Assembly (NCBI RefSeq): GCF_002270485.1
Contig: NZ_NQOG01000021.1
Location: forward strand, 1 to 49,050
Source: Anaerostipes hominis (ex Lee et al. 2021)
GTDB lineage: Bacteria > Bacillota > Clostridia > Lachnospirales > Lachnospiraceae
Direction of reading: 5' to 3'
Length of the DNA: 49,050 nucleotides
A model generated the notes under the pieces. It was not told the origin of the DNA. It was given only the letters and a program-made list of their open reading frames with translations, and did not search any database. This document shows positions 5,111 to 16,594 of this stretch, one piece after another. Both the position numbers and the translations under genes were made by a program. Position 1 is the first letter of the stretch; each line of letters starts with the position of its first letter.

Positions 5111-5440
5111 TTATATAACTGATATATATTCCATTATACCAAGACAGGGCAGTACTTTCATCCGTTTTCCCTGGCAATTCTGGGATAACACCCGTTTTAT
5201 TTTGCTCTCACCCTTTTTCTCGGGCTGTAACTTCCAAAATGGCTGTTCTGGCAGCAGATACCGACTTCGACTTAGAGAACTTTTTGCCCGCTGACCAGCA
5301 GATCTGATAACCGCTTGGCTTCCCGGGACTTTTTCTGACATAGACTTTTGCCTGCTTTTTCCCGGCTTTTATCTTCCTGATTTGTGCTTTCTTTGGAACT
5401 ATCACAAAATACCGCTTAATCTTTCCTGTATAACTCCCTT
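5111..5440 (-). pseudogene. Decayed FN3-like surface protein fragment
   Basis: Reading the minus strand from about 5440, one frame gives VPKKAQIRKIKAGKKQAKV, then GYQICWSAGKKFSKSKSV. This matches the fibronectin-III-like repeats at the C-termini of Lachnospiraceae surface proteins (usual pattern: KAGKKKATVTW, GYQIQYSTNKKFK). The frame stops at 5208, and the expected continuation is absent or shifted. No signal peptide, start or ribosome site is present. It is the remnant of a larger secreted protein, next to the giant beta-helix gene. Confidence 0.55.
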
Positions 5441-5705
5441 TTCCAATGACTTCCTTTCTGGCTCACCGATGGTTTCGGCGTAACTAGTTTCCCCATGAAT
5501 TGTCATTCCGCTTCTAATTACTAAAAATCACTATTACAAATAAACAAGATACTAATATAATTTTATCATAACATCTCCACCTGGTTAATATGATATAGTT
5601 TTTAGTATCTTCTCTCTCATAAATATATCATGGCAAAATAAGTAAAAAAATTCTATGTACTAATTTGAGAATTGCAGGGAATAACTTTCGCTATCCCCTG
5701 TCTAT
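5441..5705 (-). other. AT-rich spacer with a weak terminator hairpin
   Basis: No gene is visible. The inverted repeat CAGGGAATA/TATCCCCTG (5675-5700, one mismatch) lies just after the stop codon of the giant secreted protein gene. It is followed on the minus strand, about 20 bases later, by a T-rich run. It may end the pilus-like operon, though the T tract is not adjacent. Confidence 0.4.
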
Positions 5706-8700
5706 TTATTTCTTGATTTTAAATTCATATTTTAACACAGCATCTTCCCTTGTTTTTTCCAGCTGGCTTGTGAGCTGAGCGTTTAATTTCCCGTCTTTCT
5801 TCCATTTACTCGACTCTTTCAACGTATACAAATATTTCTTATTTATAAATCTTACATTATATTTATATGAGTCTTTAAAAGGATTGTTCTCGGCGATGTA
5901 TACTGTCGAATCAAGTTTTGTTTTCTTCCCCAAAGAATCTATTGCCTGATAAACAATTTTATGCTCACCTACGGAATTTAACTTTTCAATTTGCATCGGT
6001 ATCGGATCGACAACAGATACAGGTACTTTCAGGCCGCTTTTGTCATCCTCTAAGTCTTCTACCTGATAGTTTTCAAGTATTTCTTTAAGAACAGTTTGTG
6101 GATTGTTATCCAAATCTTTCTGATAAAATGCAAGATTCTGTGAATGTAATTTGGGAGGATTGTTATAAGTTACATATACCGTACCTTCTTTTTCTGCCAC
6201 ATTTCCAACACTGTCCTCAACTTGAAAAATAACTTTGACTTCTACGGTCTCATCTTTTTCAAGCTTCATAAAATAAGTGTCCATTACATCTGTATCATTC
6301 ATTCCTCCAGAAAAGTTTTGGGGTTCCGGCCGGTATCCTTCCATACTTGTTCCATAATCTAATTTTATAATCTGTACTTTTTCCGTCAAATCTCCGTCTT
6401 CATCATCATAACAACCCTTTACAGCTTTTAATAAATCATTCTTTCTTATTTTTTCATTCTCTAAAAAAGTCTTTTTATCATGCAAAATAATGTCTGGCTT
6501 ACTGTCCCACTGGCCTTCCATAAAAAATATATCCTCAGCATTCAATAAGCTATTTTTATTATCTAAATTCACAGATGCATTTACTTTCTTATAGCTTTTT
6601 GCAAATGCCAAGATATGATCTGATTTCCCCCTTTCCCGCTCTTCTTTTAATTCTTTATATCCAACAGGTTCCAATTCTCTTCTCTTACGGGCACTGCTGA
6701 TATCTTGTTTCCATCCTATAAACTTCCCTTCTGATGACCGGAAACCGTTTTTCCTCAACAGTATATTTTCAGATTTGTTTTGTTCCTGGCTGTCCGTCGT
6801 ACCAGCGGCACCCTGAATCCCCGGCAGATACTCCACCCTGTAATGGGGCCACAGTGCAAAAAGCGTCGCATCCGCATTTGCTGTATAAACATTCCCCGGC
6901 TGATACCCGTCTCCTGTTCCATCTGCATTCGTATTCCATGCAACAAACACGCCCGATCCACCGGAAGGTGTCAAAGCCGACAGCCTTATGTCCTCCTCCC
7001 AATACTTAACTGCTGCCGTGGGCATGTTCATGACCTCCTCTTTTGAATTTTTATCATAGCGAATCTGATATGCCTGACTCAGAACAATGCTGTATGGAAC
7101 ACAGCCGGAAGATGATTTTTTTAAATTTCCCGGTCTCATGACATATCCACTGCCTGCATACATAAATCTTCCATTCACAGACTGATTGTTCAGCAATGCA
7201 TCTCCTGTTTTATAATTACTGTCCGCAGAATTAGATATGTTTCCTTTTACTGCCGCATAGCCATTTCGTATATTGGCAGCATCAAGAGAAATTCTGGCAG
7301 TCAGTGAATTGCTGTTGGAAAAGTATCGATTGGAGACCGTAATAAACCGATCCTTTGCGAGATAAATTTCCTGTTGTATCTCCGTATGTCCCTCTATTGA
7401 AAACAGGCTTCCTTCATGAAAGATACTCCGTTGTGTACCATTTTTGCACTGATTGTTTAAGATATGGGCGTTGTTGTTCAGGATCGCAGTATTCCTGTTA
7501 TAAATGCCTGATCCATTTCCCGATGCACTGTTTCCCTGGATGTTCACTGCCTGATTAGCCTGAAACGTTGTAAAAGTACCGCTGGCTATATAAACAGCTC
7601 CCCCGTCTCCATAAGATTGATTTCCTGTAAAATTGCTTCCGTTTGCCTTGCAGGTGCCGTCAATGTAAATACCCCCTCCGCCTGCCTTTGAGGTGTTTCC
7701 GCTGACATTGCCGCTGCTAAAACTGCACGTGCCGGCAGAACTTACCGAGATACCGCCGCCCTTCCCGGAAGCGCTGTTGGAACTAACCGATACATTTGAA
7801 AATGAGACTGCTCCGTCTATCTGAAGTCCTCCACCGTTTACAGATGCAGTATTGTTTTTTATACTTCCTCCGCTCAAAGAGCCTCCTGCATTTTTCAAGA
7901 TGGCTCCTCCCCCATATGTGGCGGCAGTATTGGAAGAAATCTCTCCGCCTGTCATAGAAAGTTTTCCCTTTGCATAGATCCCGCCCCCAGAATTGCCAGA
8001 ATGATTATTTCTTACAGTTCCTCCGGTCATGCGGAATTCTGCCTCATGGTAGACACCCGCGCCATATACTGCCGAGTTATCATACATGCTTCCACCTCTC
8101 AGGGAGCCCTTCACAGAATCTGCACAGTAAATCCCGCCTCCATAGCCTTTGCTTTCATTTCCATGGATTACTGCTCCTGCCTTTATTTCCAGAGCCGCCC
8201 CCTTTTTGTAACTGCCGTTTGACAGACAGATGCCTGCCCCGTTTCCGTTGCTGTGATTTCCATAAATATTGCAGTCCTGTATGGCTCCGTTTGAACCGTT
8301 GTTTAAACATACGGCTCCGCCTGCATCCGCCTGATTATTTTTTAATACCACGCCTGTGGTGGATTTCTGCTGATATCCATCCTTTCCATTCACAGCCCAT
8401 GTACCGGATCTCGTATATTTCCAGACGCCGAGATCACCTTTCGTAGAGTTTACTTTTCCATCTGTTTCGATCGCTCCCTGCACTTTAACTGCCCCTCCGA
8501 GAGCATCCTTCTTTTTGTTGGACGCCGCACAGTCTGAAACTGTACCTCCATACAGCCTCAGGGTTCCATAATTCATAATGCCTCCGCCATGAATCGCCTG
8601 GCAGTGTTCTATCGACCCTGCAAACATGTAAAAAGAAGCACCATTGCCGACCAAGACACCGCCTCCATGGGAAGATTTCGGCGAACTGGAAGACACGTCT

Positions 8701-9842
8701 TTGCTGCTCTTTGCCCGGCAGCTGTCAATCTTCCCTCCGAACATATAACAGGATGTACCGGAATTCATGGCAATTCCTGCCCCTCCTGCAAAGTCTGCCA
8801 AAAAATATCCGTCTATGATACGGCTGTATTTATTTAGATACAGCTGTCCTGATATAACTTCTATCATGGGAGCTGACGCAGCAACGTTTTTCCCGTTAAT
8901 GTACAGATTATTTTTTGCTCTTCCATCTCCGTCATAGGCTCCTAATGTGAGTGACCCTCCGTTTACTTCTAACATGGCATCTTTATATCCCACAGCCCTG
9001 TTGAGATTACGTGCGCTCTCACCATCTGCATAAATCTTCACATGCCGACCGTTCGTCCTGATCGCTGATGTCACATTAAAGCCCTTATCCACACGGACTG
9101 CTATTTTCTCGCCTTTCTCTACGGAAGCCACTGCGTCCTTTAAAGCTTTGAGAGAACTCACGGCTTTAAAGTTAGAATATCCATCTGAAACAGCTTTCGC
9201 TGCTTTTTTCTGTACCTGAACAGGCAGCGGAGATACTTTGTCTGGTTTAGCAGGAACTTTGTCTTCCTTGAGAAAGCCAAGGTTTTTATATAAATCATTC
9301 ACTGCACTCTGTATTTCTGATTTCCCGTCCTTCACCCGTTTCAGAGCAGTGTAAAAATCCAGATAATAACCATGTTTCTCCGATACCAGCTGCTTTAAAT
9401 ATTGTTCTAAAGATTCATAATCTTTTCCCTCAATCTGATTTATACACTCAATAACAATCTCTTCATCCGGTTTCTCCTGACTCCCCTTTTTCAGCATCAG
9501 AAAATAAGGCTCCAGCCGGTCAAATAATCTTTCTAACTCCTCTTTTGTCCGTTCACTTTTTATAAGTTCTCTGATGATCTGACAGTTTGTCACTTCCAAA
9601 AACACAGACTTTTCCTTAGGACTTAACCTGTCATAAAATTTATTCTGTTCTTCTTGAGACCAGGAGGTGAATACATCGATGTATCCACCTTCAAGCAGTT
9701 TCCCCATAAAACTCATCTCTGTGCCGGCCTGAACAACTGAAGACACTGTGGCTGTGCCCTGTTCTGATCCCGATATCGCAGCCGCCGTCAGCAGACTTGC
9801 TACGATCACACCGGAAATAATTCTTTTCCCCCATTTTTTCAT
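5706..9842 (-). CDS. Secreted 1378-aa right-handed beta-helix protein
   Basis: A very large exported protein. Residues 1-40 form a signal peptide (lysines/arginine, then VIVASLLTAAAISG). A charged helical region covers about 45-200. From about 260 to 880 there are glycine-rich repeats of the type GGGIYAKGKLSMTGGEISSN and GGGLQIDGAVSFSNVSVS, as in polymorphic outer-membrane/pectate-lyase-like parallel beta-helices. Near 955-1020 is an InlB B-repeat-like module (FVAWNTNADGTGDGY, LFALW). From about 1130 come Ig-like modules (DDEDGDLTEKVQI, VYVTYNNPPKL). No LPXTG or other wall anchor is visible at the C-terminus. It is the last gene of the Tad-like operon and its ribosome site AAGGAGG overlaps the stop of the preceding gene, so it may be a cargo or tip adhesin. 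That role is inference. Confidence 0.8.
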   Translation of the reverse strand: MKKWGKRIISGVIVASLLTAAAISGSEQGTATVSSVVQAGTEMSFMGKLLEGGYIDVFTSWSQEEQNKFYDRLSPKEKSVFLEVTNCQIIRELIKSERTKEELERLFDRLEPYFLMLKKGSQEKPDEEIVIECINQIEGKDYESLEQYLKQLVSEKHGYYLDFYTALKRVKDGKSEIQSAVNDLYKNLGFLKEDKVPAKPDKVSPLPVQVQKKAAKAVSDGYSNFKAVSSLKALKDAVASVEKGEKIAVRVDKGFNVTSAIRTNGRHVKIYADGESARNLNRAVGYKDAMLEVNGGSLTLGAYDGDGRAKNNLYINGKNVAASAPMIEVISGQLYLNKYSRIIDGYFLADFAGGAGIAMNSGTSCYMFGGKIDSCRAKSSKDVSSSSPKSSHGGGVLVGNGASFYMFAGSIEHCQAIHGGGIMNYGTLRLYGGTVSDCAASNKKKDALGGAVKVQGAIETDGKVNSTKGDLGVWKYTRSGTWAVNGKDGYQQKSTTGVVLKNNQADAGGAVCLNNGSNGAIQDCNIYGNHSNGNGAGICLSNGSYKKGAALEIKAGAVIHGNESKGYGGGIYCADSVKGSLRGGSMYDNSAVYGAGVYHEAEFRMTGGTVRNNHSGNSGGGIYAKGKLSMTGGEISSNTAATYGGGAILKNAGGSLSGGSIKNNTASVNGGGLQIDGAVSFSNVSVSSNSASGKGGGISVSSAGTCSFSSGNVSGNTSKAGGGGIYIDGTCKANGSNFTGNQSYGDGGAVYIASGTFTTFQANQAVNIQGNSASGNGSGIYNRNTAILNNNAHILNNQCKNGTQRSIFHEGSLFSIEGHTEIQQEIYLAKDRFITVSNRYFSNSNSLTARISLDAANIRNGYAAVKGNISNSADSNYKTGDALLNNQSVNGRFMYAGSGYVMRPGNLKKSSSGCVPYSIVLSQAYQIRYDKNSKEEVMNMPTAAVKYWEEDIRLSALTPSGGSGVFVAWNTNADGTGDGYQPGNVYTANADATLFALWPHYRVEYLPGIQGAAGTTDSQEQNKSENILLRKNGFRSSEGKFIGWKQDISSARKRRELEPVGYKELKEERERGKSDHILAFAKSYKKVNASVNLDNKNSLLNAEDIFFMEGQWDSKPDIILHDKKTFLENEKIRKNDLLKAVKGCYDDEDGDLTEKVQIIKLDYGTSMEGYRPEPQNFSGGMNDTDVMDTYFMKLEKDETVEVKVIFQVEDSVGNVAEKEGTVYVTYNNPPKLHSQNLAFYQKDLDNNPQTVLKEILENYQVEDLEDDKSGLKVPVSVVDPIPMQIEKLNSVGEHKIVYQAIDSLGKKTKLDSTVYIAENNPFKDSYKYNVRFINKKYLYTLKESSKWKKDGKLNAQLTSQLEKTREDAVLKYEFKIKK

Positions 9843-9856
9843 TCTGACATGCCTCC

Positions 9857-10234
9857 TTATGCTTCTTCCTGAAACTGTTCCAGCACTGCTGTTTTTCTGA
9901 CCTCTATTGTTTTTTTCTTTCCGTCTGAAGTAAGGAAAGTCTCACGGACACTGACATCCAGCAGTCCGTGGATATGGTCGGCTCCGATAATTTCCACTTC
10001 TATATCGGCATCTGACGTAATCTGTGTCTTTAAATCCCGGACAAATGCCTCTGCCATCTGCTCTCTGGATTCGTACTGTTCCTCCTTCATATTGTCCAAA
10101 GTCTGTTCAACCGCATTGGAGACATCCATCGTAAGTTCTGTTTTTCTGGATGCGAGTCCTGAAATATTTTGTGTTATAAACACAGAGTAGATTAAGATGA
10201 CAAGTAAAATAATTCCTGTGACTGCCCCTTTCAT
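9857..10234 (-). CDS. Pseudopilin-like membrane-anchored protein (125 aa)
   Basis: One N-terminal hydrophobic segment (GIILLVILIYSVFITQ, about residues 7-22) is followed by a helical region and a short beta-rich domain (DADIEVEIIGADHIHG, LLDVSVRETF). This layout, a hydrophobic N-terminal helix with a small alpha/beta head, is that of TadE/TadF-type pseudopilins. Sequence identity to a named family is not evident. It lies between a 58-aa Flp-like gene and the giant secreted protein, with a 14-base gap to the latter. A prepilin-peptidase site is not apparent. Confidence 0.65.
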   Translation of the reverse strand: MKGAVTGIILLVILIYSVFITQNISGLASRKTELTMDVSNAVEQTLDNMKEEQYESREQMAEAFVRDLKTQITSDADIEVEIIGADHIHGLLDVSVRETFLTSDGKKKTIEVRKTAVLEQFQEEA

Positions 10235-10266
10235 AAAATTCCTCCTCTGCTTTATCCCTCACTGCG

Positions 10267-10443
10267 TCATCCCAGAAATATAAATGAGCTGTTCGCACCT
10301 GACTTTTCAAAAAATGTTGAAATGGTATCCGTCAGCGCTTTTTGAAACTGGGTCACAAAAGTACCTTTGGCAAAAACACATAAGGCCAGCACTACAATCA
10401 CTGCTACAATAATTAATCCGTAATCTTCTAAAAAACTTTTCAT
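10267..10443 (-). CDS. Flp-pilin-like small membrane protein (58 aa)
   Basis: A 58-residue protein beginning MKSFLEDYGLIIVAVIVV and continuing LALCVFAKGTFVTQFQ. The stretch EDYGLIIVAVIVV resembles the core of Flp pilins (IEYGLIAALIAV). Unlike Flp, only six residues precede the YG, with no glycine and thus no prepilin-peptidase leader. One transmembrane helix is followed by an amphipathic tail. The gene has an AAAGGAGTTACTT ribosome site. Three other proteins in the operon start with the same pattern. It is probably the major or a minor subunit of the structure built by the ATPase at 14082-15128. Confidence 0.65.
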   Translation of the reverse strand: MKSFLEDYGLIIVAVIVVLALCVFAKGTFVTQFQKALTDTISTFFEKSGANSSFIFLG

Positions 10444-10459
10444 AAGTAACTCCTTTCAG

Positions 10460-10813
10460 TCATTCTTCATCCTCTGTTACACTGTTTGCATAGCTTCTGA
10501 TCTGACAAACCTTTTCTATCCGCAGCAGAGGTACATATAATTTATACTTCAATGTTACAAAAGAGCGTGCCCTGTTCTCGTCGGCCTGTTCCCTGGATAC
10601 ATCCAAAGAAACATACCCGTCCTCCTTTGCCTCCTTCCGGCATTGCTCAACCACTGCTTTTGAAAAACCCGCCGCATCCATCTTATGGACTGCGGCCGAC
10701 TGGTATTGCTTTGCGTTGGAGACCACCTTCGTATTGACACAATAAACGACATTTAAAAACATTCCTGCGGCTATAATAAAGCAGCATACAAATGTCTCTA
10801 CGGCCAGCCTCAT
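10460..10813 (-). CDS. Pseudopilin-like protein, paralogue of its upstream neighbour (117 aa)
   Basis: An N-terminal hydrophobic helix (AVETFVCCFIIAAGMFLNVV) is followed by an extracytoplasmic domain. The run MDAAGFSKAVVEQCRKEAKE, then DGYVSLDVS, aligns with RIEASGFDSLIIKECEKEAS in the next gene upstream, so the two are paralogues. Both end with a beta-hairpin-like stretch (TLKYKLYVPLLRIEKV and VLAYHLRIKLLGI). Size and topology fit TadE-type minor pilins. It is preceded by the paralogue (12-base gap) and followed by the 58-aa Flp-like gene. Function within the apparatus is inferred from context only. Confidence 0.65.
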   Translation of the reverse strand: MRLAVETFVCCFIIAAGMFLNVVYCVNTKVVSNAKQYQSAAVHKMDAAGFSKAVVEQCRKEAKEDGYVSLDVSREQADENRARSFVTLKYKLYVPLLRIEKVCQIRSYANSVTEDEE

Positions 10814-10825
10814 TTTCTATCCTCC

Positions 10826-11155
10826 TCATAATGCATACCCTTCAATCTCCTGCCAGCTGGCAATTCCCAGCAGTTTTATCCTCAGATGATAAGCCAGCAC
10901 TACTTTATACTTTGGCTTTTCATCATAAAAGCCGTCATTTTTTACAGAAAGACTGTATCCCTTTTCAGACGCCTCTTTTTCACACTCTTTAATGATCAAA
11001 GAATCAAAGCCGCTGGCCTCAATTCTGCCTATCATTTCCTCATGAACGGCTCTCGCTCCGGCCTCTTCCAAAGCCGCTCCATTATATGAAGCCATAATAA
11101 AGGCACCCAGGCAGAGCAGAATCACACTGATGACTAATTCGACAGGCATCTTCAT
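10826..11155 (-). CDS. Pseudopilin-like protein (109 aa), paralogue of downstream gene
   Basis: MKMPVELVISVILLCLGAF starts a transmembrane helix, followed by a charged helical segment (ALEEAGARAVHEEMIGRIEA) and a small beta-rich domain. The start at 11155 overlaps the stop of the CPBP gene as ATGA, and AAAGGGGA lies six bases upstream; this decides it over longer forms. ATGA overlap means translation is coupled to the protease. It is paralogous to the gene at 10460-10813. It is probably a minor pilin of the Tad-like structure. Confidence 0.65.
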   Translation of the reverse strand: MKMPVELVISVILLCLGAFIMASYNGAALEEAGARAVHEEMIGRIEASGFDSLIIKECEKEASEKGYSLSVKNDGFYDEKPKYKVVLAYHLRIKLLGIASWQEIEGYAL

Positions 11156-11841
11156 AAACATTCCCCTTTCTTCTTTATCGTCAGGCAGACGGTCCATGCG
11201 GAAATAAAAGTAATACAGACGGTAAGACAAAAATGATTCAGACTGATCCAAAGGATCGGTGAAAAGGACAGCAGATTGCTGATCATATGAACTGAAAAAG
11301 GTGCTTTTAAGCTGTGATGCTTCTCATATACGAAACAAAAGACGTTCCCCCACAATGCTGCGTAGATACCCTGGATCACATGTCTGTGGCACAGCCCGAA
11401 AATGACACTGGAAATCAGAGACGACTTTACTTTCCCCATCGGTTTTAATCCTTCGAACAGAAATCTGCGGAATAAAAGTTCCTCGGCTGCCGGTCCAATG
11501 ATTCCTGCCGCAGCTGCGTTTACTAAGAGCGGGCTTATCTCGGCCCTCTGATCCATTATAAATTTGCTGTTATGGAAATTTTCAGTAAGATAAATAGAAA
11601 TGTATTGTGTGAGAAAAAAGAAAGAAATCGTAAATAGAATCAGTCCGCTGCGGATTCTGAACCTTTTCCCTTGATTACTTGTCAAAAAGGGTCTGCAAAG
11701 AAGGATCAGACACAGGCCGCTAATCAGATTTGGATACAGGCCAGGAATTCCGATCAAACTGCACAGCTGTCCGCAGATCCTATAAAGCGTGAAATAAATA
11801 AGGAATCGTTTTACATCCTCATTCACTGTGATTTTCTCCAT
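11152..11841 (-). CDS. CPBP (CAAX/Abi-type) intramembrane metalloprotease
   Basis: A 229-residue protein with about six hydrophobic segments and the CPBP signatures: AAEELLFRRFLFEG (EEXXXR motif), then FGLCHRHVIQG (FXXXH), then a histidine/asparagine pair in HMISNLLSF. These place the glutamates and histidines expected for a glutamyl intramembrane protease. The gene overlaps the 161-aa gene upstream by 23 bases and the pseudopilin gene downstream by four, so it is an integral part of the operon. Members act in bacteriocin immunity or in membrane protein processing. Here it may replace the missing prepilin peptidase; that is speculation. Confidence 0.8.
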   Translation of the reverse strand: MEKITVNEDVKRFLIYFTLYRICGQLCSLIGIPGLYPNLISGLCLILLCRPFLTSNQGKRFRIRSGLILFTISFFFLTQYISIYLTENFHNSKFIMDQRAEISPLLVNAAAAGIIGPAAEELLFRRFLFEGLKPMGKVKSSLISSVIFGLCHRHVIQGIYAALWGNVFCFVYEKHHSLKAPFSVHMISNLLSFSPILWISLNHFCLTVCITFISAWTVCLTIKKKGECL

Positions 11842-12304
11842 AATTCTTTACCAGTATCTTAATTCTTCCTTCCGAAACCAGCCCGATGGAGTTTTTAACC
11901 GTATATAAAAGAATAAATTCCTTATCATGGCTCGTATCTAAATATTCTGACTCAAACAAAGACCTCACCTCTTTTCCTCCCTCATTCGTGACAACAAAAA
12001 TCTTGATCTTTTCCGTCAGGTCACCGTCTTTTTTATCCTCTGCCTTTACAAGCTTTCTCGGATTCAACTGCTCTTCTTTTCTAATAATGAGTCTTCTTGC
12101 CGTACCGTCTTCCCCACGAACACCCGATAACTCCGGTCTGCCCTGCTTTTGAAAAAATTCATTGGATGAGATATGATTGGTATCTTGTATAACGCCGTTT
12201 GCTTTCAGCTGTGAATAGACTGTATTTCGTATAAGGAAAACTGCTCCAAAAGCTGCTGCTATCAATACAATGATCCTTCCGTAATTTTCAATGATCTGCT
12301 TCAC
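11819..12304 (-). CDS. Flp-like N-terminus fused to an Ig-like module (161 aa)
   Basis: The protein begins (M)KQIIENYGRIIVLIAAAFG, the same layout as the tiny Flp-like proteins beside it. After about residue 65 comes an Ig-like module of the DUF5011 type: DKKDGDLTEKIKIFVVTNEG, later LYTVKNSIGLVSEGRIKILV. The giant protein of the operon has a near-identical motif (DDEDGDLTEKVQI). The start is GTG at 12304, supported by AGGAGGATGAG. The structure suggests a pilin-like anchor that presents an adhesive domain, perhaps as a minor tip or base subunit. Confidence 0.65.
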   Translation of the reverse strand: MKQIIENYGRIIVLIAAAFGAVFLIRNTVYSQLKANGVIQDTNHISSNEFFQKQGRPELSGVRGEDGTARRLIIRKEEQLNPRKLVKAEDKKDGDLTEKIKIFVVTNEGGKEVRSLFESEYLDTSHDKEFILLYTVKNSIGLVSEGRIKILVKNYGENHSE

Positions 12305-12313
12305 CTCATCCTC

Positions 12314-12460
12314 CTAACACAATACACAGCTGATAGAGTCAAAAAAGGCTGTTCCAAACCGGGCGGCAGCAGATAATAATACCCCCAGAAATGCAAGAAC
12401 AGCGGTTCCTGCGATCACACACACAATTATGCTGCCATATTCGTCAATGATTGTCTTCAT
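12314..12460 (-). CDS. Flp-pilin-like small membrane protein (48 aa)
   Basis: A 48-residue protein that starts MKTIIDEYGSIIVCVIAG and continues TAVLAFLGVLLSAAA. DEYGSIIVCVIAG corresponds to the IEYGLIAALIA core of Flp pilins, without leader peptide. The short tail ends in cysteines (SISCVLC). The ribosome site GAAAGGAGGTGACACCT is the strongest in the operon, as expected for an abundant subunit, so this is a candidate major pilin. Confidence 0.65.
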   Translation of the reverse strand: MKTIIDEYGSIIVCVIAGTAVLAFLGVLLSAAARFGTAFFDSISCVLC

Positions 12461-12475
12461 AGGTGTCACCTCCTT

Positions 12476-12577
12476 TCAGCTTATCAGCTGAACAAAACGA
12501 ATGTAAACTGCACAGATACCGATGCCTGTAAGCAGCAAAAATAAAACCGCTCCCAGTTCCTCAAAAAAATCCTGCAT
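12476..12577 (-). CDS. 33-aa membrane microprotein in the pilus-like operon
   Basis: A 33-residue open frame starting MQDFFEELGAVLFLLLTGIG with one hydrophobic helix and a good AGGAGGACAT ribosome site. EELGAVLFLLLTGIG sits where the other small proteins have DEYGSIIVCVIAG, so it may be a fourth, more divergent, member of the same family with tyrosine replaced by leucine. It lies between the TadB/C-like gene (13 bases) and the 48-aa gene (16 bases). Confidence 0.55.
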   Translation of the reverse strand: MQDFFEELGAVLFLLLTGIGICAVYIRFVQLIS

Positions 12578-12589
12578 ATGTCCTCCTGT

Positions 12590-14095
12590 CTATCCCGGAA
12601 GTTTCGTCCAAAGCGTAAAGAAACTCCCGAAAATCAATCCCAAATCCATGATCATCTTTAAAGTTGCCAGCACCATGGGCACAAACGTCAATGCCCCTAT
12701 CCCCGCTACATCGTTCTCATTTTGAATCCATTCTGCCTTGTCCATTAATACATTATTCCGATGGATCAGGGTATTGATCTGTGCCTCGGAATCGTCTTTC
12801 CCACAGTTGGTAAGCGAATATAACATCTTGGAGGCAGACTGTATTTCCGGCAGATCAAACTCCGACAGAAAGTTCTGATACGGCAGTATGGATTCCGGAT
12901 CTTCATCAATGTTATGGAGAAGCATCTCAATCTGCTCCTTTAATACATAAGGTGCTTTATCAAGAGAATCCCTTATTGCAACATAGACGTTTTCTGTCTG
13001 AAGACTCAGCGCGATCCCCCTGAGCCAATAAGGAAACTTCTGATTGATCTCTTTTAGAATTCTCCTCCCGGCATTCTTTCTCTTTAACGACGGAGTGAAC
13101 CACGCCGCGGCTATCAGGGCTGTTACAGCCCCTATAATATAGAGATTCTGCCAGTCAAACCCCAGGAGTAAAACAGGAAAACTCAGTGCAGTAATGATCC
13201 ACGGCTGTTTTCCGTCCTTTTCCTCCCGCATTATCTTAAAATCTTTTTGAATCTGTTCCGGATTTTCTTCCATCGTATCTTTTAGCCAGGAGCCGGTGAG
13301 CAGTTTTTGTGCTCCCAGATATAACATGAGAAACAAAAACAAAAGAAAAAATGTCGTTCTCTGGTAAAGTGGTCCCCTAAGTACCTTTCCAAGCATCTCA
13401 TCGCTGGCCAGCATCATGACTGTGGTCCCCGCAACTGCCAGCGACGCGGTCAGAGAAAGCACGATCTTAAATTTCATACTTTTTCTCTCTTTCTGAAAGA
13501 GATACGTCCGCTCTGTCCATTCTTTAACATCGTCTAATATGATATTTAACGTACTTTGATACTGGCCACCCAGATTTTCCACTTTGACCAGATAATCATG
13601 CAGCATCTTCATCCGGTCACAGCGGTACTCCTGCTCAATACAGGAAAGTGCGTGCCGATACAAGTCGTCTGCTGCGACCGGACTGCTGATGGCTTTCTCC
13701 GCTTCATCGATAAGTTTCAGAATACGGCCTTCACAGAGCTGTTTTGTCTCCTCCAATGCCACGATAATCTTTGGCTGCTTTTTGAAAGAATATATCATCT
13801 GCTCCAAATAATTCACCACATCCCTGAATCTTTGCTCTTCATACATATATTTAAACTGCCGGATGATAATGATCGGAAAAAAGCACAGATATGCCAGGCC
13901 CAGACCCATGATATAAGGTATTTGCAGATGAAAAAATCTTCCTGCCAAAAGAATTCCAAGAAAAGATAAAAATAAAGATGCCAGATATTTTTTGAATGAA
14001 TAAAAGTATCCATAGCCCCGGATCTCTTTTTTTAGATTTGTATATTTGATGTACCAGAATGTTTTCAGGATTGCTCTTTTATTACGTTGTTCCAT
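12590..14095 (-). CDS. TadB/TadC-like T2SS-F domain membrane protein
   Basis: A 501-residue inner-membrane platform protein. Hydrophobic segments lie near residues 38-80 (a pair), 205-225, 240-260, 300-335 and 470-495. Two cytoplasmic helical regions are visible between them (about 85-200 and 340-465), the second with LTNCGKDDSEAQINTLIHRN. This is the arrangement of two fused T2SSF units, where classical Tad systems use two proteins, TadB and TadC. It overlaps the ATPase gene by 14 bases. It should be the platform that couples ATPase action to pilin assembly. Assignment rests on topology and position more than on exact motifs. Confidence 0.7.
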   Translation of the reverse strand: MEQRNKRAILKTFWYIKYTNLKKEIRGYGYFYSFKKYLASLFLSFLGILLAGRFFHLQIPYIMGLGLAYLCFFPIIIIRQFKYMYEEQRFRDVVNYLEQMIYSFKKQPKIIVALEETKQLCEGRILKLIDEAEKAISSPVAADDLYRHALSCIEQEYRCDRMKMLHDYLVKVENLGGQYQSTLNIILDDVKEWTERTYLFQKERKSMKFKIVLSLTASLAVAGTTVMMLASDEMLGKVLRGPLYQRTTFFLLFLFLMLYLGAQKLLTGSWLKDTMEENPEQIQKDFKIMREEKDGKQPWIITALSFPVLLLGFDWQNLYIIGAVTALIAAAWFTPSLKRKNAGRRILKEINQKFPYWLRGIALSLQTENVYVAIRDSLDKAPYVLKEQIEMLLHNIDEDPESILPYQNFLSEFDLPEIQSASKMLYSLTNCGKDDSEAQINTLIHRNNVLMDKAEWIQNENDVAGIGALTFVPMVLATLKMIMDLGLIFGSFFTLWTKLPG

Positions 14096-15128
14096 TGTTC
14101 ATCCCCTCCCATCGGAACGGATCTTTGACCAGAAATTTTTTCTTCAGCTTCTGCGGAAGCTCTTTATTTATAATCCTCCGGTCCTTCAAGATCATCTGTA
14201 TCTTTTTCTGTCCATTCTGATCCAGATAGAAACAGGCAATCTGATCAATATAGCGGAGGATTCTGCCATCCAGGCTCTGTTCCTTCCGTATCAGAATTCC
14301 CAAGTCCACAAATCCATAGACGTCCCTCTCTATACGTTCCGATGCGATGGGATCGTCCACCATATTTTTCATCCTCTCCGGAATCCTCCGCACATCATCC
14401 GTGTGAACGGTTGTCAGCGAATAGTGTCCCGTTGTGAGGGACTGGATTAAATGCTGTACTTCCTCACCCCTGGCTTCCGACAGAAGAATCCACGTAGGCA
14501 GCTGCCTTAAAGACGCTTTAATGGCTTCTACGTAGCCAAAAGTATCTTCATTGACCTCAATGGCCACACAGTCTTTTCCCGGATTAATCTCCCTGTAATG
14601 TATCTCCAGACTATCTTCAATCGTAATAACTCGCTCCATGTCCGGAATAAACCTGGTCAGATATTTCAAAAGTTCTGTCTTGCCGCTGCCTACCTGACCT
14701 GCGATCACAATATTCATATGTCCGAGAACGCTGTTTTTCAGGAAATTCAGGATTTCTCTGCCGCAGTAATCCTCTTTAAAAATCTTATCTTCGCTGAGCC
14801 TTACAAGTGCCGGTGACTTTCTTATAGAAATGCTCCGCCCGGTGGCACATACATCTTCATGTATAATGGAAATCCTCAGTCCATCTACTTCTGCCTCCAC
14901 CAAGGGATCATATTTATTAAACGGAGCAGAGACCGCATTGGCTATCCTTGCACTGAACTGGCTGATAAAGCTTTCCGAAATCTCTGTTCCAACAACGGTA
15001 TGCCTGCCCCGGTCCAGGTCGTCAATGATCAGCTCTTTTCCATTCCAGTTGATGTCGGTAACCATATAGTCCTGGATAAAAGGCAGCAGCGGTCCAAAAT
15101 ACTTGTCTTCGATTGCAAATTTCTGCAT
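14082..15128 (-). CDS. CpaF/TadA-type secretion ATPase
   Basis: A type II/IV secretion ATPase of 348 residues, shorter than usual TadA (about 400-450) because the N-terminal region is reduced. Walker A is VIAGQVGSGKTELL; the Asp box is VITIEDSLEIHYRE. The Walker B region is TWILLSEARGEEVQHLIQS with a serine where GE usually stands, and the His box is TGHYSLTTVHTDD. It powers assembly of pilin subunits at the membrane. The gene starts the operon, with ribosome site AGGAGGAACT and an 84-base leader from the promoter at 15247-15219. Confidence 0.88.
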   Translation of the reverse strand: MQKFAIEDKYFGPLLPFIQDYMVTDINWNGKELIIDDLDRGRHTVVGTEISESFISQFSARIANAVSAPFNKYDPLVEAEVDGLRISIIHEDVCATGRSISIRKSPALVRLSEDKIFKEDYCGREILNFLKNSVLGHMNIVIAGQVGSGKTELLKYLTRFIPDMERVITIEDSLEIHYREINPGKDCVAIEVNEDTFGYVEAIKASLRQLPTWILLSEARGEEVQHLIQSLTTGHYSLTTVHTDDVRRIPERMKNMVDDPIASERIERDVYGFVDLGILIRKEQSLDGRILRYIDQIACFYLDQNGQKKIQMILKDRRIINKELPQKLKKKFLVKDPFRWEGMNNGTT

Positions 15129-15198: not shown

Positions 15199-15247
15199 AT
15201 AAGATATCTTATTTCCATATTTTAACTTATATTTATTTTTTTGTCAA
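15199..15247 (-). promoter_or_regulatory. Promoter of the Tad-like operon with 14-bp palindrome at the start site
   Basis: Minus strand: TTGACA (15247-15242), 17 bases, TAAAAT (15224-15219), which is close to consensus. The perfect palindrome ATAAGATATCTTAT lies at 15199-15212, where transcription should begin. A repressor bound there would block initiation. No regulator gene is adjacent, so the binder is unknown. Confidence 0.7.
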
Positions 15248-15360: not shown

Positions 15361-15433
15361 GCGATAGTAGTACAGTTGGTAGTACGCAACCTTGCCAAGG
15401 TTGAGGTCGCGGGTTCGAGTCCCGTCTATCGCT
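15361..15433 (+). tRNA. tRNA-Gly (anticodon GCC)
   Basis: Acceptor stem GCGATAG/CTATCGC, D-arm GTAC/GTAC, anticodon stem CAACC/GGTTG with loop TTGCCAA giving GCC, T-arm CGGGTTCGAGTCCCG and discriminator T. A tyrosine integrase remnant starts about 130 bases downstream, so this tRNA is a likely attachment site. No second copy of its 3' end was found in the window. Confidence 0.95.
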
Positions 15434-15565
15434 CTTTTTAATGCTGGAAAATCTAGTATTTCTCATGGTTTCATCGGTTTAAATAGTAAATCTGACTGCT
15501 GTCAAAATTAAATTATTGATGTCAAAAAGTTTGGACACTTTTTAAAGAAAAAATGACGATAGTTT

Positions 15566-15985
15566 TTATAAAACTGCCGCCATTTTTTTTCGTTTCTTTT
15601 CCGCTTCTGTTGAAATGATGTAGCATTGTTCCGTGGTTGCGATATCCGAATGACCAAGTATATCTGCAATATCTCTGGTACTCATTCCAGCTTCATGTAA
15701 TACAGTTGCAACGGTTTTGCGTAGCAGATGAGGATGTACTCTGTCAGGTTCAACCCCGGCTCTTTCACATAAATTCTTTAAATCTTTAGAAAGCTTTGCT
15801 GTTTTTTCTATATATTGATGCCCATCATAGCAAAGCAGTTGATTTGGTTTATACCATCCATTTTGCTGATGCAATTCCTTTAAAAGCCTTAATACTAACA
15901 TAGCTCTCCCGGTCAGTGGCACTTCACGTTTGGAATGTGCAGTCTTTGTTTCACCAATGTCATAAACCTGTTTAATGATATGGTA
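15566..15985 (-). pseudogene. Tyrosine recombinase (integrase), C-terminal fragment
   Basis: Reading from about 15985, the frame gives YDIGETKTAHSKREVPLTGR and ends with the catalytic region: HPHLLRKTVATVLHEAG (HXXR), ILGHSDIATTEQCYIIS (H and the nucleophile Y). The catalytic half of a Tn916/phage-type integrase is therefore complete, but the N-terminal DNA-binding domains and first catalytic arginine are missing. They are replaced by IS30 sequence at about 15986. An in-frame ATG at 15922 would give only a 118-aa piece. It is a remnant of the element that used the neighbouring tRNA-Gly. Confidence 0.8.
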
Positions 15986-16594
15986 TAAAAAAAGTTGACA
16001 CCCGCATTACCGAAATGGACACGGTGATTGGATGCGAGGGCAGCCGCAAGGTTCTCCTGACCATGCACTTTTGTTCCTGTGACATTATGGCAGCGTTCCT
16101 CCTGGACTCCAAGGAAACCACAGGAGTTGAAAAAGTGTTTGACTCTATCAATAAAGCTTATCGGTACATGGCTTTTCAGCACCGCAATCCCCCTGATACT
16201 TACCGGCAGGGGAGGCGAGTTCAGACATCCGGACAAGCTTGAATGCGGCATTGACAATATCATCCGCACAAGGATCTATTATTGTGATCCGATGGCTTCA
16301 TGGCAGAAACCGCACTGTGAGCGGAACCACGAATACATCCGGAAAATCTGCCCGCAGGGCAAGAGCTCTTTCGATAACATGACACAGGATGACGTGAACC
16401 TGATGATGAGCCACATTAACAGTTCCTGCCGGGAAAGTCTCGGCGGTCTGACACCGTTCACACTTGCAAAAATGATATTGCCCGATGAACTCATGGACTT
16501 CCTCCATCTGTCTGAAATTCCGGCGGATGAAGTCATCCTTACGCCGGCACTGGTAAACGGCAAGCAGAAACCAATGCGTAACACGCAGGCATAA
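15986..16594 (+). pseudogene. IS30 family transposase, 5'-truncated and frameshifted
   Basis: The DDE domain of an IS30 transposase. The first frame has ITEMDTVIGCEGSRKVLLTM and runs to about 16180. Reading then shifts to GRGGEFRHPDKLECG, YYCDPMASWQKPHCERNHEY and ICPQGKSSFDNMTQDDVN, which carry the second aspartate and the E region. The N-terminal helix-turn-helix is missing and the frames do not join, so it is inactive. Its left end is fused to the truncated integrase, suggesting a deletion between the two. Confidence 0.82.

Follow-up and report, generated by a model that had tools for sequence, protein, structure and literature searches.

A run of eleven genes on the minus strand was analysed in contig NZ_NQOG01000021.1 of Anaerostipes hominis (ex Lee et al. 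2021) (RefSeq assembly GCF_002270485.1). The window, by which we mean the whole stretch of DNA analysed, comprises 49,050 nucleotides (positions 1 to 49,050 of the contig). The run extends from position 15128 to 5706 and probably encodes a compact machine related to the Tad/Flp (type IVc) pilus system, with small subunits that appear to be translated without a leader. All of the eleven co-directional and partly overlapping open reading frames (ORFs) listed in the initial annotation are present on this strand, in the order and at about the sizes first claimed. Genes and features are as follows, with protein lengths in amino acids (aa).

14082..15128, minus strand: CpaF/VirB11-type secretion ATPase, 348 aa, with a T2SSE profile match
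12590..14095, minus strand: platform protein, 501 aa, with a probable T2SSF-type (TadB-like) N unit and a second membrane unit in the TadC position
12476..12577, minus strand: 33-aa leaderless single-helix protein, MQDFFEELG..., of the 30-40-aa class
12314..12460, minus strand: 48-aa leaderless Flp-like protein, MKTIIDEYG..., of the 41-70-aa class
11819..12304, minus strand: 161-aa protein with a leaderless helix and an immunoglobulin (Ig)-like domain, GTG start, candidate minor pilin (alignment A4)
11152..11841, minus strand: CPBP (Rce1-like) intramembrane protease, accessory, 229 aa, or 224 aa if the start is the GTG at 11826
10826..11155, minus strand: 109-aa N-terminal-helix protein with C-terminal GYAL, candidate minor pilin (alignment A7)
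10460..10813, minus strand: 117-aa N-terminal-helix protein, candidate minor pilin (alignment A7)
10267..10443, minus strand: 58-aa leaderless Flp-like protein, MKSFLEDYGLIIVAV..., candidate major pilin
9857..10234, minus strand: 125-aa N-terminal-helix protein, residues 3-18 free of D, E, K and R, candidate tip initiator
5706..9842, minus strand: 1378-aa secreted protein with Pmp-type repeats, candidate adhesin
5709..5864, minus strand: C-terminal module VRFINKKYLYTL..SSKWK of the 1378-aa protein (alignment A5)
15219..15247, minus strand: promoter-like site TTGACA-17-TAAAAT (11/12 match), about 90 bases upstream of the first gene

Some coordinates had to be revised, although the reading frames are real: the 48-aa gene starts at 12460 and not at 12469; the first of the genes that had been called TadE-like exists but starts at 11155 (109 aa), with an ATG overlapping the CPBP stop codon (ATGA); and the 1378-aa gene exists but, at 5706-9842, lies outside the interval first assigned to the system, 14 bases 3' of the last small gene. 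Besides the ATGA junction of the CPBP and 109-aa genes, overlaps were found between the ATPase and platform genes and between the 161-aa and CPBP genes, and this arrangement is compatible with an operon. Promoter-like sites were not enriched in the region (24 against a mean of 22.9 in shuffled sequences).

The same eleven genes were found in two genomes of the genus (loci L177 and L178), where the platform proteins were 94% and 82-83% identical to that of the window. The ratio of nonsynonymous to synonymous substitution rates (dN/dS) was 0.025-0.159 for all 11 genes against the nearer copy, L177, and 0.035-0.231 against the farther copy, L178, where dS could be computed for 10 genes; four of these 10 values are rough, their dS exceeding 2. 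The 58-aa gene showed the minimum of the locus against L177 (0.025), the 33-aa gene gave 0.066 and 0.035 and the 48-aa gene 0.042 and 0.173 in the two comparisons, and the CPBP gene had the highest dN of the eleven in both. Because synonymous changes dominate in every gene against both copies, the reading frames are not chance ORFs; to judge from these substitutions, all eleven, including those of 33, 48 and 58 aa, are under purifying selection.

The platform was detected in 3 of 11 genomes of the genus and, by profile search, in 26 of 200 genomes of the family Lachnospiraceae (27 of 200 in a single-sequence search, one of them a weak partial match). Three of 398 genomes in a phylum sample were positive, namely the source genome and two weak partial matches. 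A scan of database genomes with the ATPase alignment returned at least 569 relatives among 589 stretches, from which the best 80 loci were kept, seven of them duplicating loci of the family-genome set. These 80 belong to Anaerostipes, Lactonifactor, Faecalicatena, Roseburia, Lachnospira, Lachnobacterium and others, together with Erysipelotrichaceae such as Traorella, and many of the genomes are metagenome-assembled. Gene tables were inspected for 25 loci of the first set and nine of the database scan. Both core genes, encoding the ATPase and the platform, were called in 75 of the 80 loci, and 382 proteins with an N-terminal hydrophobic stretch from these 75 loci were sorted by length and motif, 37 being set aside. 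Five subunit classes were found in 31 loci, four in 20, three in 12, two in nine and one in three, counts that are affected by stretches ending early.

A common gene order is a ~55-aa subunit, the ATPase, the platform, proteins of ~35 and ~48 aa, the Ig-bearing protein, a 110-aa protein (often ending in GYAR), the uncharged-helix protein and a large secreted protein. Fifty genes of the 41-70-aa class sit upstream of the ATPase; in the Anaerostipes loci, the gene of the 55-aa class lies downstream of the platform. As further variants, the 110-aa gene may follow the platform immediately or the large gene may stand upstream. The gene set is found in other Lachnospiraceae, with the platform in 26 of the 200 family genomes and at least four of the five subunit classes in 51 of the 75 loci. 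That the products form one machine had been proposed from operon structure; the conserved gene set, as read from these genomes, makes a single machine likely, while operon structure remains something that we infer.

The naming of the 348-aa protein as a CpaF/TadA-like ATPase held up: it matched T2SSE in Pfam (E 3.7e-26), its family profile matched solved structures, including 2oap (Type II secretion system protein), VirB11 homologues and CpaF (E 2.7e-34 to 4.5e-29), and it stands beside CpaF in the tree. The NCBIfam TadA model scored 98.2 bits, under its cut-off of 373.15, and the best NCBIfam match was VirB11, also below cut-off. In a tree of 27 rows, from which 17 of the 26 comparison loci were left out, the compact ATPases, including L229 and L235 (those of genomes G104 and G038), formed a single branch apart from classical CpaF with a support of 94/97, just short of the tree tool's 95 mark. 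The tree has long branches and its root is unsure.

The platform protein had been described as apparently fusing two T2SSF units. In two Traorella genomes (L131 and L133), the platform is split between two neighbouring genes. Of the fused profile, the N half matched the first of these with a probability of 99.2 and the C half matched the second with 99.6, cross-matches to the other gene being 0.5 or less. Because two genes are present in Traorella, the platform looks like a fusion, and a two-gene origin is well supported by these profile comparisons. T2SSF was matched by six of 26 platform relatives (E up to 1, best 1.2e-4) and, at a stricter threshold, by six of 63 (E up to 0.01, best 4.6e-5), and a second, divergent platform copy in a same-genus genome scored 37.9 bits against a cut-off of 25.2 over residues 128-231. 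When the halves of 40 of 74 relatives were scanned, T2SSF appeared in seven N halves (best 0.0011) and was absent among the best 25 of 41 families listed for the C halves. The full platform profile matched the genome's own classical TadB with 42% over 244 columns. These alignments support a TadB-like N unit, and the C unit may correspond to TadC. The earlier description is therefore retained for the two-gene fusion and for the T2SSF character of the N unit, but a T2SSF identity of the C half is unsupported.

The 41-70-aa class, which was selected by a glycine within positions 7-12, a choice that favours but does not force position 9, comprised 98 proteins (97 distinct) from 61 loci whose ORFs begin with the pattern M-x-x-h-h-x-[E/Q]-[Y/H]-G; G9 was present in 97, E/Q7 in 92 and Y/H8 in 91 of the 98. 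The 30-40-aa class comprised 56 proteins in 55 loci, with G9 in 49 of 56. When three classes were pooled, the motif glycine was at position 9 in 188 of 228 proteins, at another position in 10 and not found in 30. Of 154 small proteins, 127 could not be extended by 5-30 residues from an in-frame start further upstream, and a good ribosome site accompanied such a start in one case only. Seven classical Flp proteins in the loci searched have their cleavage glycine at positions 10-14. In the Caulobacter Tad pilin, according to the accessible part of the report, cleavage removes 14 residues, and Glu19 and Tyr20 (+5 and +6), which are conserved, contribute to the bonding of neighbouring subunits (PMC11067988). 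Aligned on the Glu/Tyr pair, the compact proteins begin two residues ahead of the mature N terminus. On this alignment, the E/Q7-Y/H8-G9 motif is the counterpart of Glu+5/Tyr+6 of the mature Tad pilin, and the small proteins are, judged by their reading frames, pilin-like proteins without a leader, a feature that the initial annotation had overlooked.

Its naming of three tiny Flp-like proteins agrees with matches in relatives: among 46 pilin relatives at E up to 1, Flp_Fap was matched by five (best 0.032) and Flp1_like by four (best 2.9e-5). Comparison of the subunit profile with classical Flp gave a probability of 59.9% (E 8.8e-5), nine other pairings giving 6.5% or less, and one of two matches in a PDB search (E up to 1) was PilA (E 0.44). 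These scores lend modest support to Flp homology. The window's small proteins themselves had no convincing match in Pfam or NCBIfam and matched no Flp model, and the 46 relatives matched unrelated families as often (FAM210A-B 9/46; PRD1_DD 5/46, best 2e-4). The tiny proteins might instead be membrane peptides with an accessory function in an ATPase-platform machine that serves some other purpose, e.g. DNA or envelope transport. This would agree with the lack of convincing window matches, with the weak similarity of the relatives to unrelated helices and with VirB11 as the best, below-cut-off NCBIfam match of the ATPase; the Flp-type matches and the profile comparison, the E/Q-Y/H-G motif and the T2SSF-type N unit of the platform speak for pilin-like subunits instead, and we regard a purely accessory role as quite improbable. 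Subunit genes present as tandem copies, four in L179 and two each in L046 and L094, fit a main structural subunit. The L179 copies, in the second compact system of a same-genus genome, encode leaderless subunits of 52 aa, and three of the four are near-identical (L179:8147-8842).

The remaining membrane proteins were compared by class. In alignment A4 of the 161-aa class, M1, G9 and P57 were invariant in 27 proteins, and a relative from L064 gave a weak Bact_surface_Ig-like match (E 0.033, below cut-off); the Ig-bearing protein may serve as a minor subunit. The three proteins of 109-125 aa had been called TadE-like. Their N-terminal-helix topology would fit, but no TadE profile matched: TadE was not among the best 25 of 40 families listed for 37 relatives, and when profiles were compared with the Tad minor-pilin candidates of the same genome, the probabilities did not exceed 6.5%. 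A TadE/TadF identity is thus unsupported by either approach. Conservation of a Glu6 in the 109-117-aa class was likewise rejected, K (30/56) being commoner there than E (17/56). The uncharged-helix (125-aa) class, defined by uncharged residues 3-18, comprised 61 proteins in 58 loci. The type II secretion system (T2SS) has a subunit lacking the usual Glu, and by analogy the uncharged-helix protein could be a tip initiator. The CPBP protease was confirmed by its PF02517 match (E 6.8e-18), and its gene is retained in both other same-genus loci. The gene was found embedded in the pilus operon in this genus only; proteins similar to its product were encoded near just two of the best 80 loci, outside the pilus genes. 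No evidence supports CPBP as a substitute processing protease.

Prepilin peptidase, TadZ and RcpC had been reported as lacking. None was found at the window: TadV, RcpC and TadZ were absent among its 327 ORFs of at least 40 aa. The linked stretches of the relatives (5.6-21 kb each) yielded TadV in 0 of 80; the TadV model recovered its two Tad-locus members and one L038 TadV outside the model. RcpC occurred in 3 of 80, all of them Traorella loci that were members of the model, and the Pfam RcpC model placed L131 over its cut-off (E 1e-9) and L133 just under it. With a protein of L073 as query, a TadZ-like P-loop ORF was linked in 12 of the 80 loci. Seven have long forms with an AFWSNxRGKSCVTSN motif upstream of the machine (L073, L081, L086, L087, L091, L092 and L125) and five have shorter forms (L088, L100, L106, L107 and L121). 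The genome's classical TadZ candidate found none of the 12, and for a tested member neither Pfam (over cut-off) nor the PDB gave a match; the putative TadZ-like label comes from motif and neighbourhood. These counts distinguish the compact loci from classical Tad/Flp loci. Three Traorella loci (L131, L133 and L141, the last cut by a contig end) carry RcpC, and L131 and L133 also carry the split platform and an already leaderless small subunit (MKAFFEEYG). The Traorella loci are possibly an evolutionary intermediate; in terms of gene content, there is a series with Traorella, which keeps more Tad genes, on one side and the window locus at the reduced extreme.

The reported absence of a peptidase does not extend to the genome, in which the search for an unlinked enzyme found four Peptidase_A24 matches, three in two classical Tad loci and none on the window contig. 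These two loci, L037 and L038, are further T2SSE loci over the Pfam cut-off and are classical Tad by content, with TadV-type peptidases, ATPase, T2SSF proteins and Flp with a leader; the organism thus has three Tad-type loci, of which the compact one alone is without peptidase and leaders. Since Peptidase_A24 was found in 199 of 200 family genomes and in 26 of 26 and 50 of 50 machine-bearing genomes, absence of a peptidase was abandoned as proof. An ordinary Tad system could accordingly borrow TadV in trans from the two classical loci and have its pilins cut at a non-canonical site. Such sharing has parallels in the accessible parts of two reports: MSH loci lack a peptidase and may use that of another system (PMC6668835), and the Tad peptidase of Bifidobacterium breve sits at another locus (PMC6916266). 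Among the 98 small pilins, however, 96 have K, D, Q, E, H, T, S or R as their second residue, leaving no glycine ahead of the motif; two residues are scarcely a leader; and if processing was kept, it is difficult to see why several paralogous small proteins in many genera should have lost their leader. Processing in trans consequently appears unlikely to us, and the lack of leaders is a stronger point than the lack of a peptidase.

The 1378-aa protein has a predicted signal peptide (by eye) and matched the POMP repeat (E 2.8e-4, 20.6 bits against a cut-off of 15) and Chlam_PMP (E 0.0012, 19.3 bits, under the cut-off of 20.6). The bodies of the large linked proteins differ, and many end in a common module, VRFISxxYLxTL...SxW; in its alignment of 28 rows (A5), R, S and W are invariant. 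The profile matched the source genome with E 2.1e-13, the window protein having supplied a row to A5. At E up to 0.01, the module was found in 19 of 200 family genomes, one match each, comprising 17 of 26 platform genomes and 2 of 174 others (Fisher p 2.7e-16, overstated in that the genomes are related); p was 9.4e-14 without the three genomes that supplied model rows and 5.1e-16 at E up to 0.001 (16 versus 1 genomes). In G038, G122 and G143, the module is on a separate contig and the machine stretch lists no same-strand secreted gene of more than 550 aa. Because the module co-occurs with the platform, even on another contig, a working link between module and machine is, on this distribution, more likely than mere neighbourhood. 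A module regular expression matched 31 of 648 proteins of at least 250 aa, in 31 of the best 80 loci; it was written after the sequences had been viewed and was not used as evidence. A remnant of a second secreted gene lies at 5235-5494 (minus strand), and an intact version of that gene (828-833 aa) stands directly 3' of the large protein in L177 and L178.

The T2SS is a precedent for pseudopilus-type secretion, and the locus might encode a short pseudopilus-like machine in which a piston of subunits drives the large protein out across the thick wall, without formation of a long pilus. One module match per genome in the 19 positive genomes and the several very small subunits would agree with a piston. 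On the other side, the large protein of the window has its own predicted Sec-type signal peptide (by eye), and tandem copies of one subunit suggest a high demand, as for a filament. We consider a piston unlikely.

On balance, the locus is best explained as encoding a Tad-like filament whose subunits need no leader cleavage, built with one ATPase and one platform chain, to which the giant protein is docked by its C-terminal module; we put the probability of this reading at roughly 0.6. It would be a divergent, monoderm version of a Tad-like type IV filament machine, one in which leader processing has been given up. The subunits would be inserted N-in/C-out directly from translation, in a form resembling a canonical Tad pilin after cleavage (Met-Lys followed by the mature sequence with the Glu/Tyr pair), and the ATPase and the one-piece platform would push these single-helix subunits out of the membrane. 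The 58-aa protein would be the likely main subunit, and the Ig-bearing and 109-125-aa proteins likely minor subunits at the tip or base. The giant protein would exit via Sec, and the filament would hold or carry it by the C-terminal module; the machine would in this way serve the display or export of proteins tagged with the module. Filament formation, peptidase independence, display and adhesion are properties that we infer. The wider proposition of a distinct filament clade of gut Lachnospiraceae and some Erysipelotrichaceae, with subunits translated ready for assembly, peptidase-free assembly and giant proteins displayed via a docking module, is tentative, and we give it somewhat less than even odds.

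Several observations weigh against the filament reading. The 501-aa platform had no T2SSF match in Pfam or NCBIfam, nor did either tested Traorella platform gene, in addition to the negative result for the C halves. The tandem 52-aa subunits of L179 are without the E-Y-G motif (MEKIIG[IV]VAESGV). Nine of the 26 platform genomes have no module match, and one of the module-positive genomes, G108, has a weak match; G001 (74% complete) has a module (E 3.7e-20) with no platform detected, and the second module-positive genome without a platform has a weak match in a frame with stops. To these are added the selection of the 41-70-aa class by its glycine, the unrelated families matched by pilin relatives and the missing matches of the window's small proteins, the missing TadE match of the 109-125-aa proteins, the prevalence of K over E at position 6 of the 109-117-aa class, the relatedness of the genomes in the co-occurrence test and the peptidases encoded elsewhere in the genomes.

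A tRNA-Gly (gcc) gene at 15361-15434 (plus strand) flanks the locus, as it does in L177 and L178; it was not seen in L179 or in the loci of 19 other relatives scanned. Beyond it lie apparent remnants of a tyrosine recombinase and of a transposase (15566-15922, minus strand; 16079-16594, plus strand; by eye). The tRNA-Gly gene with these remnants may mark a variable insertion site.

The compact machine shares with classical Tad/Flp systems a CpaF-type ATPase, a TadB-like T2SSF unit and tiny Flp-like subunits with a Glu-Tyr pair, and it differs in its one-chain platform, leaderless subunits, Ig-bearing subunit and module-tagged giant protein. An ATPase, a T2SSF-type platform and pilin-like proteins, as in type IV filaments, are present in a single locus, the pilins being identified by weak profile matches and the motif. 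No Flp with a cleavable class III leader ending in G is encoded there, and the reading frames appear to contain no leader for maturation by a peptidase. In the accessible parts of the literature, a prepilin peptidase is listed as a core component of the type IV filament superfamily, with MSH loci without one noted (PMC6668835), an ordinary tad operon with tadV is described (PMC12786226) and minor pilins are said to be functional only once processed by the peptidase (PMC12075869). The minimal monoderm Tad systems of B. breve and Micrococcus luteus are similarly reduced to pilins, platform, ATPase and one extra protein but, as far as that source describes them, keep two platform proteins and a prepilin peptidase (PMC6916266). 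For Gram-positive bacteria, Clostridia among them, tad-like loci have been described in which no protein shows an apparent prepilin signal; these carry homologs of tadV, tadZ and rcpC (PMC3244431). The Myxococcus Kil pilus, with its exchangeable tips, is also a Tad-like pilus functionalised by variable-domain minor pilins, whereas its tip pilins have peptidase sites, KilA is needed for a subset of the tips and a complex resembling a type III secretion system is its partner, according to the accessible part of the report (PMC12075869). In the literature covered, which was mostly without subscription journals, no description was found of this machine, of pilins without a leader or of a fused TadB and TadC.

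If the filament reading is true, a natural leaderless machine would make the purpose of the leader testable, be it membrane insertion, quality control or the timing of assembly. The ATPase and single platform chain would be a very small set for such a filament. The C-terminal module would offer a means of studying how very large proteins are presented on the surface of anaerobic gut commensals.

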